64,000 nucleotides of DNA from Mayamaea pseudoterrestris (Eukaryota; Bacillariophyta; Bacillariophyceae; Sellaphorales; Sellaphoraceae), in the NCBI GenBank assembly GCA_027923505.1, contig BROI01000002.1, positions 1,860,001 through 1,924,000 of the forward strand, written 5' to 3'. A program made the position numbers and the translations under genes. The notes beneath the pieces are model-generated. The model was not told where the DNA came from. It saw only the letters and a program-made list of their open reading frames with translations, and searched no databases. Shown one piece after another: positions 5,201 through 64,000 of this stretch (the stretch's first letter is position 1; each line of letters opens with the position of its first letter).

Positions 5201-6940
5201 GATTCGATTGCGTTGAAGATTGATCGAAGCTTGTTGCGTTGTTGATGCGCGCTCTTGACTTGCTTGTCGCTGTCTGTTTCGTTGTTGAAGAAGTGCTTGA
5301 CGACGGTCTGCAACGCTTTGAACTGTTGCGATGCGAGGTGCTTCTTGGTAAGTGCTTGAAACGTTCTGAGAGCGAAGAGTTTGTTGCTATGGTCTCGTGT
5401 CTTGGCGATGCGCTTGTCTAACTGGCGCTTGATTTGCTTCTTGTTGGCGAATTGAATTGATTGATCGGCAAGTATGCGTCATGCTTGTTGGCGATGTCTC
5501 TAATTGCTCGTTGACTGGCGATGAGTTGCTGCTTGGCGAGGGTACGTGTGTTTGCGTATTGGCGATGCACACAGAACAAGCGCACGTCGTCTCTGTGTTT
5601 ATATCTGGTACTTCAGAAAGTCTTTGCAAGTCTTGACGTCTGATTTCTTCGTCCTTTTGAAGCAGGAAACGAGTCTTCTTGAGGAAGTAAAGAGTTACTG
5701 GATGCGATAGGTCTTTTGCTTCGAATTCGTCTCGCTCGTTGCGCAAAGTGTCTTCTAGTAGAAGAATCTCCTTCTCTTCGGGCGTGAAAGGATTGTTCGG
5801 TCGGCAAAGATCAAGGCTCTTGTAAAAGTCTGCTCGCTTTTCGTCAAGGAAGATTAATGACTTTGGAGAAAAGATGAAGGCTTTGAGAAAGGGTACGTTG
5901 CTGTCGATGTAACTTGTTTGTCGCCCTGAGTTTGCGGTTGACGCGGCAACTTTTGCTAATCCGTCTTCTTTGAATTCTTCCGCAATGTGACTGTAAAACA
6001 CTTCATTGTTGGCAAGGTCTTTAAACTGATTGAAGCGCTGCTCACAAACTTGTTCCGGGTCGATTGGCTTTGATGAAGGCGGCGGTAGAATGCCTCGAAA
6101 GATCCAGGCGAAACGCTTGTCTTCTTCGTCCCAAGTCCAAGGGGTTGGAGGAGAGACGCGCGGGTCGTAACGATACCAGCCGTATCGAACGTTCGGGTGG
6201 TTGTAAACTGCTTTCTCTTCGTCAGAGGCGGGTCGTCCAGTTAAATGCCAGTCTTCGGGGTTGTTTGGTGAAAGGCGACGAAGGCTGTCGCGTGTGTTGG
6301 ACTCGGTTGGAATGCGCTCTCGTTCTTGATTGCTTGCAATTTGATCGGCGGCGGTAAGTCGGATTACTGGGCGGCCTTCTGGAGCGACCGATTGGAGACT
6401 TGAAGGGTTGAACTCGTGTAAAGTAATGTTGGTGAAGAGGACGACGACTTGTAGAAGGCGTCGTGAAGAATTAAAGACTTGGCGGCTTGTGTTGAAGCGG
6501 CGAAGGAAACTGTAAAGAAGGCGCGTGACTGGTGGAGTGAGAGGCGACTTGGAAAGAGTGCTCGGCAGACTAGGTAAAGTAGTTCTGCTCAACTGATGGA
6601 GACTTGAAATCTGCTCGACGACGTTGGCCTTGATCAAACGCTTGATCCGACTCGAGGTAAACTAAAAGATAAAGGCAAAAGGGTCGCTTGTAGACTTGCT
6701 CTTGCTCACTCAATACTCCGCTTGTTGCTGCAGAGCTTTGGAAATTCGAGGTTGACAGAAAGGGCTTGAAGAAATCCGCGTCCGGTTTTGTTCAATGCTT
6801 TGGAAACTTGGTAAAAAGATCTTGGTTCAATCGGCAAGTAATTACTTTGCTTGAGATCCAAGATGAAGGTCCGTACGGAAGTAGGGAGAAAAGACGGTTT
6901 AAACGCTAAAAGACTGGGGAAACTTTGAATCTATTGTTAG
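2290..6940 (-). mobile_element. Degraded Gag-bearing LTR-type retroelement, fossil
   Basis: Several partly open frames run on the minus strand. Around 5.4-6.6 kb is a 416-residue stretch of unknown family (contains NPEDWHLTGRPASDEEKAVY), followed to about 4.7 kb by a very Gln/Arg-rich tail. At 4.1-4.7 kb translations resemble copia-type Gag: FPSWFNQFKNHAKNCRLL and LLAEDLMATLMYKLPPQY. Further Gln/Arg/Ser-rich remnants continue to about 2.3 kb. No reverse transcriptase, integrase or terminal repeats were recognised, so the family is uncertain (copia-like Gag is the best guess). The element is clearly broken, with multiple breaks, and looks old. It lies between the truncated PMS gene and the satellite block in the same orientation as the PMS gene. 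Confidence 0.5.
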
Positions 6941-7379
6941 TAGATCCTCTAGAATGAGACGAAAGTGAAGCGGTCGATTTCGCATCCAAAAGTGGCTTCT
7001 CATTCATACGTATGTATATTGTCTACCGGTCGTGTCATTTTGTACTGGCCATCCCGTAGGCGGGATGGCTCTCGTCCGTCTACAGAATTGGCAGTATAGT
7101 CTTCACTGCTGGTAGTGTTTGCACGGCTTCGCTCTGTAGGGGCCAAACATTCGCTGTGTACGCCGGTTCCAGTATTCGATGTGCTTGTGGTAGTCTTTCT
7201 ACGGTTGTCAGTCGTGACTTCTTCGGGTACGGTGAAGTGTGTAGGGTTTGAGCCAGTGGCTGACTTTCTCGCCGTCGTTGGGGTGTGGTCGGGAACGGGA
7301 TCTTCCGTGTCTTGGTGCCGCTGAGACCGTGTCGATGTCCTTTTCAATGTTGCTTTGTTCGTCGGCCAAAACGGGGATC
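6941..7379. other. Non-coding or unassigned stretch before the satellite
   Basis: About 440 bp without a recognisable gene. A 130-codon minus frame at 7000-7392 is rich in Thr, Ser and Arg and overlaps the first satellite monomer. It resembles nothing I know and is probably chance or retroelement debris. Confidence 0.4.
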
Positions 7380-7830
7380 CCAGCATTGCCATCTACTGAG
7401 GGCCCAGCCAGGTAATGCATCTTGTAGCGCACCTGAATTAAGGATGTAAGCACCATTCTGGAATGATTAGGGCATACACATGGCTCTAGGTATGGGTGTT
7501 TGAAAGTCATGGCATCCTTTGGCTTAAACTGGTGACAAGTTGTCACCAATCCCATTGCAGTCTACCTAGGGACTAGTCAGGCAAAGCATCTTGTAGCGGA
7601 CTTACAATAAGGATGTTAGCACTATTCTGGCATGATTTGGGCATACATATTACTCTAGTATGGGTGTTTGAAAATCATGGAATCTGCTGGCTGAGACTGG
7701 TGACAAGTTGTCACCAAATACATTGCAGTCTCCAGGGGACCAGCCAGACAATGCATCTTGTAGAGCACTGGAAAAAAGGCTGCTGGCACCATCAGGCTAA
7801 ATTTGGTCACAGTATGGGCCTAATCATTGG
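7380..7830. repeat. Left-edge diverged monomers of the 169-bp family
   Basis: Two to three monomers keep the landmarks GTGACAAGTTGTCACC, CATCTTGTAGCG and CATTCTGG. They differ from the core at many sites (GCACCTGAATTAAGGATG, GGGCATACACATGGCTCTAG, AGTCTACC). These differences are shared with the right-edge monomers at 21.54-21.96 kb, so they probably preserve an older version of the repeat. Confidence 0.85.
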
Positions 7831-58764: not shown

Positions 58765-58860
58765 TGTTTAAGGATATTGTCCACGTTGACGTCTTGCCTT
58801 TTTACTTGTGATGTCGAAGAGGAGTAAAAACGACGAGAATAAGCTCGCTTTCTGCACATT

Positions 58861-58989
58861 TGTTGGATCTAGAATATATCTTGCGCGCCCTTGAAGCGAC
58901 ACTAATGATTAAGCAGAACAGAGTCAATAAAACCACTTTACTTATTTTCTCCAAGAAGTGATCGTCCTCGATCCACTCCTTCGGTTGCC
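58861..58989 (-). repeat. 3' LTR of the copia element (at least this extent)
   Basis: Begins TGTTGGATCTAG on the plus strand, so it ends CCAACA in element sense. Identical base for base to 63872-64000. It may extend a little past 58989, because the comparison ends with the window. The host base run ACATT lies just outside at 58856-58860 and would be one target-site duplicate. Confidence 0.9.
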
Positions 58990-61900
58990 GCTTACCGCGC
59001 TTACTTAAATGTGACCGTCTTCGTGACGTCACCGCTGCCGCTTCGGTTTGGGTTCTCATCCATGCTCAACACACTCCTTTGGGCCGAGTAGTACTTACTG
59101 CTCGAGGCCAGATTCATAACCAGGTTGCGGAGCTTGCCAAACTGGGCTCCCTGCAATGGTTTCGTGAAGAAATCCGCGACCATGTCTCCGGTCGGACAAT
59201 GCTCAATGTTGACTTCACCAGCTGCCACGCGATCTTTCACAAAGAAGTACCGAACATTCATGTGTCGCGTGCGCTTTGTACTTGAGCTTCTGCCATTCTT
59301 TTCCAACAGCATTGAACTCATATTGTCTTGATACAATTTCGTGTCTTTGACCCCGAAACCTTGCGCCTTCAGAAAATATCCTGTCCACAGCAACTGCGGT
59401 AGCACATCATGAACTCCCACAACTTCGCTCTCCGTCGAGCTTCTTGTTACCAACTTCTGTTTAGCCGACGTACTGTACACTGATCCTTGGCCAAGTGTCA
59501 TTGTTCCACCAGTGTGACCCTTCATGTCTGGGTGCACCGCGTACGACGCATCCACCCACCACTGGACTATCCCGACTGGTCCGCCTTCAGCGTCAACACC
59601 ATGTCCACGCTTCCGCGTAAATATTTAATCACTCTTGCAGCCTTCTTATAGTCGTCTTCGTCAGGCTGCTGCAGCCTCGTGCTCAAGAAAGAAATCGCTG
59701 TGCGAATATCCGGTCGCGCTCGCTGACTCAGATACAGACACTGCATCACAATCGTCACAAAATGCTGCTTCTTCGCTTCGCTCAACATGACAGGATTTTC
59801 CGATATCTGAAACAAGTGACTGGCTGCCGGAGTAGCTGCCGTTCCATCCATGTCGTCTGGCGCATGATGCAGGATGTTCTTCACATAGTCAACCATGTTG
59901 ATTGCTACTTCTCCAGGCTTAGTATAGTCCAATACCATGCCGAGGTAGTCGTGCACTTTTCCGCGTGACTTATTCATTGGAGTCTCCTTGCCAAACTCCT
60001 CATCCATCTGCGCGATGAACTCATCCACTACGCTCACGTCGACGTGCGAAATCTTCAAATCGTCCACGTGCCATCCCACGGTGATTTGCTTCCCATTGAC
60101 AATCTTGTTGCACACACACGGATCGTACGGGTTCTTCTCGAAGCCCCACTCAAGCAATTTTGCGGACAACTTCTCCCAGAATAGTCGCGCTGCTCGAAGC
60201 GTACCATAAAGCGCCATGAGTAATTCAACATACATGACTTTCTCGCCATTCTCCATTGTGACGCAAGGCTCGTACATCTCGCGATCAATTTCCAACAGTA
60301 GCTCCACCATCTTCCCAGTGAAACGAACGTGCACCAACTCATCCATTTCCGCTTGCATGAAAGCACCCGGTACATCAACCACAGCAACCTCGCGCCCTTC
60401 CATAGCGTCAATGATAGCTGTCAGAAAGATGGCCTCTGTCGCTATCGTTGGAGATGCTGCGTCTTCCTTTGCAGTGTATGCTCGTTGCTTGCGTCCATCC
60501 GCGCATCCGCGTCCCTTCACAGTCCCGCATCTCTTGCGCTTGAGAAACATCAAATACGCCAGAGCGTCCTTGCGCTGCTGCGGAGTCAGAGTGCATTGGG
60601 GGACTGCCTTCATGACGTGCCTGTCGTGTAGCTGCTGCATTTCCTTGCGCACTGCCTCCACTCCAGCATCGCCAAAAGCCTTTAAACCTTGTCGCATATT
60701 CATCTGTGCCGTGACGAGTGGCTCCGACACTTCCTCTGCAGCGTCGAGCGTGAACAAATGAGCGAACGAGCGAGGTTTGCGCGCACGCAGGCCATACCGA
60801 CCAGTGCGTGGGCCATAGCGCGCATCGAAATCCTCTTCGTCTGCAGCAGCTGGCACTCCTTCAATTTCGCCTTCATCGGGCACTCCTTCAATTTCGCCAT
60901 CATCCACGGCTGGCGCGTCGTCAAGTTCGCCGTCAATGGCCTCACCATCCTCGTCGTTCGGCACTCCTTCGATTGCGCCGTCAGCACCATCGTCGTCGTC
61001 GTCGTCGTCATCGGTCGCATTCACTCCTTCGCTTCCGCCGGCAGAGTCGTCGTCACCGCGAGAAGCGTCGTCATCATAATCAGAGTCATCATCATCCTCG
61101 GCGTCATCTTCGTGCCACATGACTGGCTCAGCAGCCTCCGCAACACGGTGGCGGTCCATGAACACGATGCCCGGATTGGCCTTCTGTTGACGAGCGAGAC
61201 GATGCACGCGCTCAATGACATCATCAGGCATGGGCAAAGGCGTAGCGTGCCCACGATTCAGAACTTTGCCCGAAGACAAACTGAGGAAATAAAACCCACC
61301 CTGCACATTACCAGTCGGGCGCAGAGCCAGCGCACCGATCGTGCGCGCCTGCATGTCATTGCTGTGCGACTCATGCGTTTGCACATACTGACCAAATTCA
61401 TACTTGCAATGCCGATTAAAGTCAACTGTCTGACCAGTCACAATAGTGCGTGGACTGAGATCCTTCGAAATGCCACGCTCGTTCGGAAACGCATTCAACC
61501 AAAACACGGCAGACTTCGTCATTTCGATAACCAAGCGTGCCGGCACGTGCTTAAATGGCAACGTGTTGTATGTCGCGCGCACCCGTTCTTTCACGACACG
61601 GATAAAACGTTCAATTTCGCCAACGTGTTCATCCTCAGATGTCGCATTGAGCGCCACTCCGAGATCAGCCAACGCGCCAAGCATTGGAGCGAACTCCCCA
61701 TCCATCAGAGCCGCGACGACACGGAACCCACCGCGTGCGTAAATCTTCAACACAGACTCGATTGCCTTCAACATAACCGGAAGCGTACGGTTTTGAATCA
61801 CCTCAACCGTAGCAAAACGAATGCTGCGGGAGAACGTCACCAACATAGGGACTTTGTTGATATACATGATGTCAGCACAAAGAGTAACGTCTCGATAGCG

Positions 61901-63857
61901 ACTCATGATAGCCGGTGGAAGCTGCTCAACAATCGCAGGCTTCACCAGATGCGACGCGCGACGCGTCGTCTTTCCTTTAACGAGACAACATCCGGTCCAA
62001 AGATGTGCTCAACAGCCAGGATGTCGGCCTTCGTCACAGGACAGTTCGGCAACTGATTGCTAGTAACGCTGCGCAGGTAATCCTTGAGGCTTGGCCGTCC
62101 AATTTTGAGTTGCAGTTCCTCAGCTCTAACAGCGCGTAAATAGTCATCATTGGTGTAGTTAGTACGGTTATCGTCTACCGTAGTCAACATCGCCACTCCA
62201 TCCTTGACATCGCTGCGCTTGCCCTTCGAAAAGCTCTCGCAAACATACAGCCCAGAGTCAGTCTCGACAAACTCGCTGCTTACCATCCGGCTTCTCCACA
62301 ACGAACATTGGACGATCCACGCCGTGCATGAGATACTCCACGGTAAACTTCTTGCGGACTTGCGCCAAACTCAAAATGTTCGCCAGTCCCTGCGGATACC
62401 ACCACACCGGACCATAGCCCTCCAGGTCGCCCATCATGTTCGTCCTTACTGTACCAGCGTTGCACTTGATCACCATCCACGTTGGCACCGGGCGAATGTT
62501 CGTCAGCATCTTGGCGTTGCAGAACAGATCCACTGTCGACTGATTGTCCAAGAGCACAGCCTTCTTCGAGATGTTCACCTTCGGCGGCTGCGCGAACATG
62601 TATCCGACCTCATCGTCGTCATCGCTTTCTTCCTCGCTACCCAGCGTGAAGTGCTGCGCCCCACTAGCCTCTGCAGCCGGCGCACTCTCCGTAGACTCCG
62701 TTCTCGTAGGACAGTCTCGCTGCACATGACCAACCTGTTGACAGGTCCAGCATCTGGGAGGGTCACGCGCTGTACCAGTCGTGTGAAACGCCACGCCCTC
62801 GTTCGTTGGCAACGTGGCTTCTCCATCCGCATGCTCACGACGCTGCATGATGTTGTATGCATCGTGGATCGTCAACGGGAAGTTGTCGTGCCCGTCGAGG
62901 TAGCAGTTGCGCAAGTGCTTGCAATACCCAGCGTATTCGCCCGTTGCGCCACGCACGAAAAGCATCGCAAGCTCGAGCTCTTCGGCGGCCTTGATATCCT
63001 CCTTGTTCGCCTTGTTACGATTGTCATCCTTGGCAATGTTCAACGCCACAATCTCGTTGTGCATCGTGACGCCAACCGCCTTCGCCACGTCTGCCAGCGT
63101 GACCATGCTTTCGTAATATTTCTGCAGGCTTTCGCGCGCTCCTTGAGTACGTCCGAACAACTCAGCTTGAATGTCCACGACTTGATCCACAAGTTTGCAG
63201 CGCCCTTCGTACGTATGCGAGATCTCCTTGATAATCGCCAGCAACTTAATTCCGTCCGTGTCCTCCTCGGCGTCTCGGAACTTGGCGTGCGACTTGACAC
63301 GATCCTTCATACGCTCCGTGCATTGTCCATGCAACACGGCGTAGAGACCAGCGAGGAAGTCGGAGTATACACGCACGCGCTCGACATGCTCTTTCTTGTC
63401 GGCCTTGTATTCCTCGAGCATTATGGACCAGTCCGAGTCCGTCGTGTCGGCATCCTTCGTTGGACGTGCAGGCTCGTCAGGAATCTCCAGTTCCACGTTG
63501 CGCATGCCCTTGAGCAGCTCCTTGGTATATTTCTTGTAGGAGCGCCCGACGAAAGTGATGATCTCGTTCGTCGTACGGATGAATCCATCGGGATCGCGCG
63601 AACCGTTATAGTCGTAGATGAATCCAGCGAGCGTCGGCTCGCTTCCTTGGAAATTTCCACTCGGCGCACGACTCGGTCCGTTGAGTCTGTTACCATTGCC
63701 TTGATTCCCGGAACGATTCCCAGCACGATTCCCACGACGATAATGACGGTTGCGTCGGTTTCCTTCGCTTGCTGGCGGAGCGGGAGGTGCACCTCCACCG
63801 CTCGACGCCGCTCCTGTCGTCGGAGTATTGCTCGTCGAAGACATGTCTTTTCACTCG

Positions 63858-63872
63858 CTTCTTGGAGAAAAT
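63858..63872 (-). other. Putative primer-binding site complementary to the element's own LTR
   Basis: On the minus strand ATTTTCTCCAAGAAG follows directly on the end of the 5' LTR, sharing its last base. It is the exact reverse complement of CTTCTTGGAGAAAAT in the LTR (63955-63969, and again 58944-58958). This position is where a primer-binding site must be. No match to the 3' end of a common tRNA is apparent. Confidence 0.55.
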
Positions 63873-64000
63873 GTTGGATCTAGAATATATCTTGCGCGCC
63901 CTTGAAGCGACACTAATGATTAAGCAGAACAGAGTCAATAAAACCACTTTACTTATTTTCTCCAAGAAGTGATCGTCCTCGATCCACTCCTTCGGTTGCC
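63872..64000 (-). repeat. 5' LTR of the copia element (truncated by the window)
   Basis: Matches 58861-58989 exactly. It joins the internal region after CCAACA on the minus strand; the Gag start codon is only 27 bp inside. Confidence 0.9.

Follow-up and report, generated by a model that had tools for sequence, protein, structure and literature searches.

The element at the right end of the window, the 64,000-nt stretch of the diatom Mayamaea pseudoterrestris analysed here, raises the question of what primes its reverse transcription. It is an LTR retrotransposon on the minus strand, with its 5' end at the right edge of the window. Both of its LTRs are 211 bp long and they are 100% identical, with TG...CA ends (beginning TGTTGAG, the last bases being CCAACA). 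The 5' LTR (63872-64082) runs off the window, which holds 129 of its bases (63872..64000); its outer end is at genome position C2:1924082, i.e., window position 64082. The 3' LTR (58861..59071) carries its own copy of the stretch proposed below as the primer (58945-58958). A 5-bp target-site duplication, AATGT, computed for the window copy only, flanks the element on both sides (58856..58860 beyond the 3' LTR). All these features are on the minus strand, as are the frames between the LTRs. The gag-type frame, taken from stop to stop (62258..63850), includes a CCHC zinc knuckle and matches PF00098 (E 9.7e-06). The pol frame, also taken from stop to stop (59567..62008), has an integrase-like region, recognised by eye, followed by a copia-type reverse transcriptase (PF07727 RVT_2, E 8.3e-17). 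The end of pol, an RNase H-like region also recognised by eye and without a Pfam match, lies in a separate frame in the window copy (59001..59624), and a candidate polypurine tract, CAAAGGAGTG, was found by eye immediately before the 3' LTR (59072..59081). The window copy is broken into three frames; several related copies have a long stop-free frame (up to 1682 aa).

The earlier note on this DNA had assigned the element to copia, and the match of its reverse transcriptase to RVT_2, above the Pfam cut-off, shows that this was right. This copia-type domain is the only Pfam match of the pol frame, in which no polymerase of the Ty3/gypsy type, that of the Tf1/sushi clade, was found. The TG...CA LTRs and the 5-bp target duplication are likewise those of a Ty1/copia element. 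Integrase-like acidic residues can be seen upstream of the reverse transcriptase in frame 59567-62008, where Pfam returned no integrase domain at a threshold of E 0.001. The search for a solved structure related to this reverse transcriptase returned none, its two weak matches being unrelated. Between the integrase and the reverse transcriptase, the coding region (60854-61054) contains the motif GAAGGAGTG, which is repeated in the LTR and has a similar form in the candidate polypurine tract. This recurrence makes extra plus-strand priming sites conceivable.

Directly after the 5' LTR, in the position of a primer-binding site, lies TTTTCTCCAAGAAG (63858..63871, minus strand), which is complementary to CTTCTTGGAGAAAA within the same LTR (63956..63969, minus strand; LTR positions 114-127). 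The earlier note had described 63858-63872 and 63955-63969 as exact 15-nt reverse complements, and both a reading of the reverse strand and a repeat scan bear this out; the scan lists the two arms as an inverted pair (I4) of 18 nt at 94%. The distance, put there at about 100 nt upstream in element sense, is 98 nt. The placement of the site just inside the 5' LTR holds for 14 nt (63871-63858) and fails for base 63872, which is the last base of the LTR. Hence, the binding site proper is 14 nt long, with zero gap to the LTR, and the 15th pair uses an LTR base.

An inverted repeat of this kind might have arisen by chance. For comparison, we took five further copia families from the same genome (F1, loci L084/L079; F2, L085/L080; F3, L086/L081; F5, L090/L089; F6, L091/L092), none of which has a junction-anchored match of 6 nt or more, their longest unanchored runs being 5-7 nt. 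Long inverted repeats do turn up in randomised sequences: with 200 shuffles per family and no anchoring, one shuffle of the F3 LTR gave 15 nt and one of the F6 LTR gave 13 nt. In a repeat with 3,000 shuffles, none reached 15 nt and the unanchored maximum over all six families was 14 (F6); the LTR of the window element itself reached at most 11 nt within the first 30 nt. Against chance stands the junction position, which was fixed beforehand, and where none of 20,000 mononucleotide shuffles of the LTR attained the observed 15 nt (maximum 13, in 2 shuffles), as does the conservation of the arrangement across copies. We thus reject a chance origin of the arms, the probability of which we consider vanishingly small.

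We searched the genome (30.6 Mb, 41 contigs) with a 161-nt query spanning the junction and found it at no fewer than 41 places, including at least 23 where the entire query matches at 100%, only the best candidates being scored. In 29 of the 30 loci that were cut out, the two arms are perfectly preserved at a distance of 98 nt. In the remaining locus (L030), the binding site is interrupted after its first 10 nt. The 5' flanks differ between copies. Many identical copies in different flanks indicate that the family spread recently with the self-complementary arrangement, and the window element is a young, recently active Ty1/copia retrotransposon. Relatives were sought in IMG/VR by reverse transcriptase, by gag and by an exact 20-nt junction pattern, and none was found.

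Conservation of the arms was assessed in an alignment of 59 pieces of at least 100 nt (33 distinct), in which indels were not counted as substitutions. The length limit excluded short pieces of rearranged 5' LTRs, among them all of L097 and parts of L096 and L110. Substitutions affect 0 of the 28 arm columns and 37 of the 227 columns elsewhere (hypergeometric P 0.009, if columns are independent). The first base past the pairing, the 15th after the LTR, varies between C and G. One copy (L083) has a diverged and shorter U5 between the arms (offset 78 instead of 98), with both arms intact. These observations fit selection on the arms. They amount to weak evidence because variation is generally low throughout LTR positions 89-153, and because there is no covariation: the aligned copies neither covary nor fail to, since they are without substitution at any arm position.

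A few copies have rearranged 5' LTRs. Three of them (L096, L097, L110) keep an intact binding site beside a 5' LTR without an intact arm, this LTR having an internal deletion or a foreign middle part, and two others (L117, L118) have 5' LTRs that are cut short, with a one-base insertion in the remaining part of the arm in L118. In L096, a deletion between two TAAGTAA repeats has taken 63 nt out of the LTR, and the flank of this copy, by eye, does not match that of the 3' LTR 4.9 kb away (L114). L097 has a normal 3' LTR (L115) and flanks, GGTTG, that match by eye. Both 3' LTRs found for rearranged copies (L114, L115) are of full length. We infer that the rearranged 5' LTRs reflect changes that occurred after or at insertion. 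Five further loci cut out in the search for missing LTRs (L116, L119, L120, L122, L126) have no match to the LTR of the window element, no LTR pair was found for a further copia match (L082/L087), and L093, which is repeat-rich and near a contig end, was left out.

Could a host RNA serve as the primer instead? The tRNA search drew on at least 48 listed places, and ARAGORN recognised tRNAs in 47 of the 48 loci. Four genes appear twice among its 51 entries because loci overlap; the distinct sequences number 44 and represent 36 anticodons. Trp, Tyr, Cys, Gly-GCC and Ile-TAT are among those absent from the set, which presumably misses about ten tRNA species when judged against the usual complement. 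Within these 44 sequences, no 3' end, half or internal segment matches the site above chance, in agreement with the self-priming proposed in the earlier note. When the 16 nt that begin at the start of the site are paired with these tRNAs, the best score is 11.0, a value equalled or exceeded by 170 of 200 shuffles. A tRNA 3' end was rejected as the primer because the site begins with TTTT and not with the required 5' TGG, so that such an end cannot fit, despite the missing species. Internal tRNA fragments were likewise tried as primers, with no above-chance match in the 44 distinct sequences. There is no ARAGORN tRNA gene within the window, and an Rfam search of the window gave no match.

The same test is able to detect a tRNA primer. 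For F2 and F3, it picks the 5' half of the initiator tRNA-Met, ending ...CATAACC(C), at scores reached by 2 and 1 of 200 shuffles, respectively. F2 is the weaker positive control, since in an earlier run with 60 shuffles its score of 13.5 was equalled by the best shuffle, while the score of 14 of F3 was unequalled. Judging from these matches, both families appear to use the initiator tRNA-Met 5' half as their primer. The copia element of Drosophila uses this half too. The sites of F1, F5 and F6 have no tRNA match above chance (158, 194 and 47 of 200 shuffles); that of F1 begins with GGTTAT, which resembles the complement of the initiator half, and diverges thereafter.

The site of the window element thus adjoins its 5' LTR and pairs with a stretch of that LTR, not with a tRNA of the (incomplete) set. 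A host RNA, either a tRNA fragment from outside this set or another small RNA, might still prime the element, with the LTR copy being a by-product or having another role. The limited number of anticodons and the tRNA-Met matches of two other copia families of the same genome speak for it. Against it are the results for the tested tRNAs, the missing TGG and the exact 15-nt match to the element's own LTR, which it leaves unexplained. Allowing one mismatch, the 14-mer of the arms occurs at 64+64 places in the genome, compared with 7+3 for a reversed control; among the 100 places listed, with 28 others unlisted, all are exact, and the 20 short stretches that were cut around such places all match the LTR or leader of the window element. 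We regard priming by a host RNA as unlikely.

Self-priming of the Tf1 type is, in our view, very likely the right explanation for the window element, as judged from its sequence. The arm position, the arm length, the lack of a match in the tested tRNAs and the positive control given by F2 and F3 support this reading, which was that of the earlier note, and the self-priming layout at the junction is real and probably functional. Transcription would start at or slightly before the LTR arm. The 5' end of the RNA would then fold back, and the arm would pair with TTTTCTCCAAGAAG, the pairing extending one base into the LTR. The RNase H encoded by the element would cut after the last A of ...GGAGAAAA, between 63956 and 63955, freeing a 3' end on a 14-nt RNA primer, CUUCUUGGAGAAAA. 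The extension of this end through U5 and R would give strong-stop DNA, which would jump to the 3' R as usual.

The predicted start of the RNA is the A of TCACTTC (63970..63970, minus strand). This heptamer precedes the arm, with its A one base before it, and fits YCAYTYY, an initiator defined in Phytophthora (PMC3599244). That study also reports that the diatom Thalassiosira pseudonana appeared to be without INR+FPR and FPR (PMC3599244). The motif therefore lends weak support to a start at 63970. The only TATA-like sequence seen, TTTAAG (LTR positions 63-68), is 50 nt upstream of the proposed start A. The usual spacing between a TATA box and the start is less than 50 nt. Self-priming would still be feasible if transcription began somewhat before 63970, by up to about 20 nt.

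The minimum-energy fold predicted for an RNA starting at 63970 includes 14 of the 15 pairs. Such a helix of 14 bp, with some 80 nt in its loop, could also be a structural stem of the RNA, involved in dimerisation, in packaging or in hiding the leader, and not a primer at all. The fold as a whole has an ordinary stability (z -1.19; 21 of 200 shuffles are as stable). A structural stem would not need an arm that starts exactly at the LTR end, where a primer must sit, and it would leave the element with no primer. We consider this reading very improbable and keep to self-priming.

The earlier note knew of no such arrangement in Ty1/copia and suggested that it might be undescribed. This was mistaken: Neumann et al. 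2019 predicted self-priming for the plant Ty1/copia lineage TAR, citing an earlier proposal for Houba and Osr-1 (PMC6317226). Their prediction relied on complementarity over 10 bp or more that begins 0-5 bp downstream of the 5' LTR (PMC6317226), and the window element has a complement of this length at this distance. Like the TAR elements as described there, it belongs to Ty1/copia, has a site complementary to its own 5' LTR and is predicted from sequence alone to prime itself. TAR is a plant lineage, compared here by description and not by tree, and the diatom host suggests an origin of self-priming independent of TAR.

Self-priming is known from fission yeast. In Tf1, the pairing involves the first 11 bases of the RNA, and RNase H cleaves it between bases 11 and 12 (PMC7175516). 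Tj1 is also self-primed and belongs to the Tf1/sushi group of Ty3/gypsy (PMC4600332). In this group (Tf1, Tf2, Tj1), as in our proposal for the window element, the site after the 5' LTR pairs with the RNA 5' end and not with a tRNA. The window element differs from Tf1 in being Ty1/copia by its reverse transcriptase, in having a complement of 14-15 nt and in being known only as a sequence. The CoDi elements are, like it, copia elements of diatoms (PMC2806351); a term search of the main text of that paper found no analysis of tRNA, primer-binding sites or self-priming. Self-priming in Ty1/copia has thus already been predicted, in plants, and we found no report of it in diatoms in the literature searched, which covered few of the subscription papers.

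A different solution has been described in fungi, where GalEa copia elements have a Conserved Hairpin Site in place of a tRNA-type binding site (PMC5445492). GalEa has a palindrome or hairpin at the junction and no complement was found in U5, whereas the window element has the complement and, by eye, no such palindrome. The GalEa arrangement, a junction palindrome with a second complementary block downstream and no U5 complement, is thus not that of the window element. It is of interest for F5 and F6, whose reverse transcriptases (26-29% identity) are the best matches once the family's own copies are set aside. Directly after their LTRs, these two families have 12-nt palindromes, AAGTAATTACTT and AAGTCGCGACTT, each followed by GCCG, with matched changes at the centres (in L090 just past the LTR at 6279-6822, reverse strand; L091:307-318). 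A genome scan for CAAAGTNNNNACTTGC found 26 places, with the centre AATT in 8, CGCG in 3 and a non-palindromic centre in 15, compared with 2+2 for the reversed-pattern control; the places checked as element junctions are F5, F6 and the window copy only. The resemblance of these palindromes to the palindromic part of the GalEa site, as described (PMC5445492), is a lead. Near the left end of the window, there is a second copia element with an F5-type LTR (6847-7385, minus strand; 96.7% identical over 544 nt) and a palindromic junction at 6834-6849 on the same strand (whole stretch 6834-7385).

These comparisons allow a wider reading, which we put forward tentatively, as a possibility with somewhat less than even chances. 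A diatom Ty1/copia clade may have dropped tRNA priming entirely: the family of the window element would self-prime independently of plants and fungi, its nearest relatives in this genome, F5 and F6, would rely on a palindrome that covaries and lies in the same position, and the initiator tRNA-Met half would be retained by copia families further removed. If this holds, a stramenopile lineage of Ty1/copia acquired self-priming outside the plants, and LTR elements change their primer more readily than their family labels imply. Several copia families with different priming sites in one diatom genome would then allow the switch to be compared side by side. Such elements will escape annotation pipelines in which a binding site of the tRNA type is required.

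The genome also contains silicon transporter genes and many light-harvesting proteins. One locus (G000 C1:2970661-2974680) has a single open frame of 1445 aa with three silicon transporter domains in tandem.
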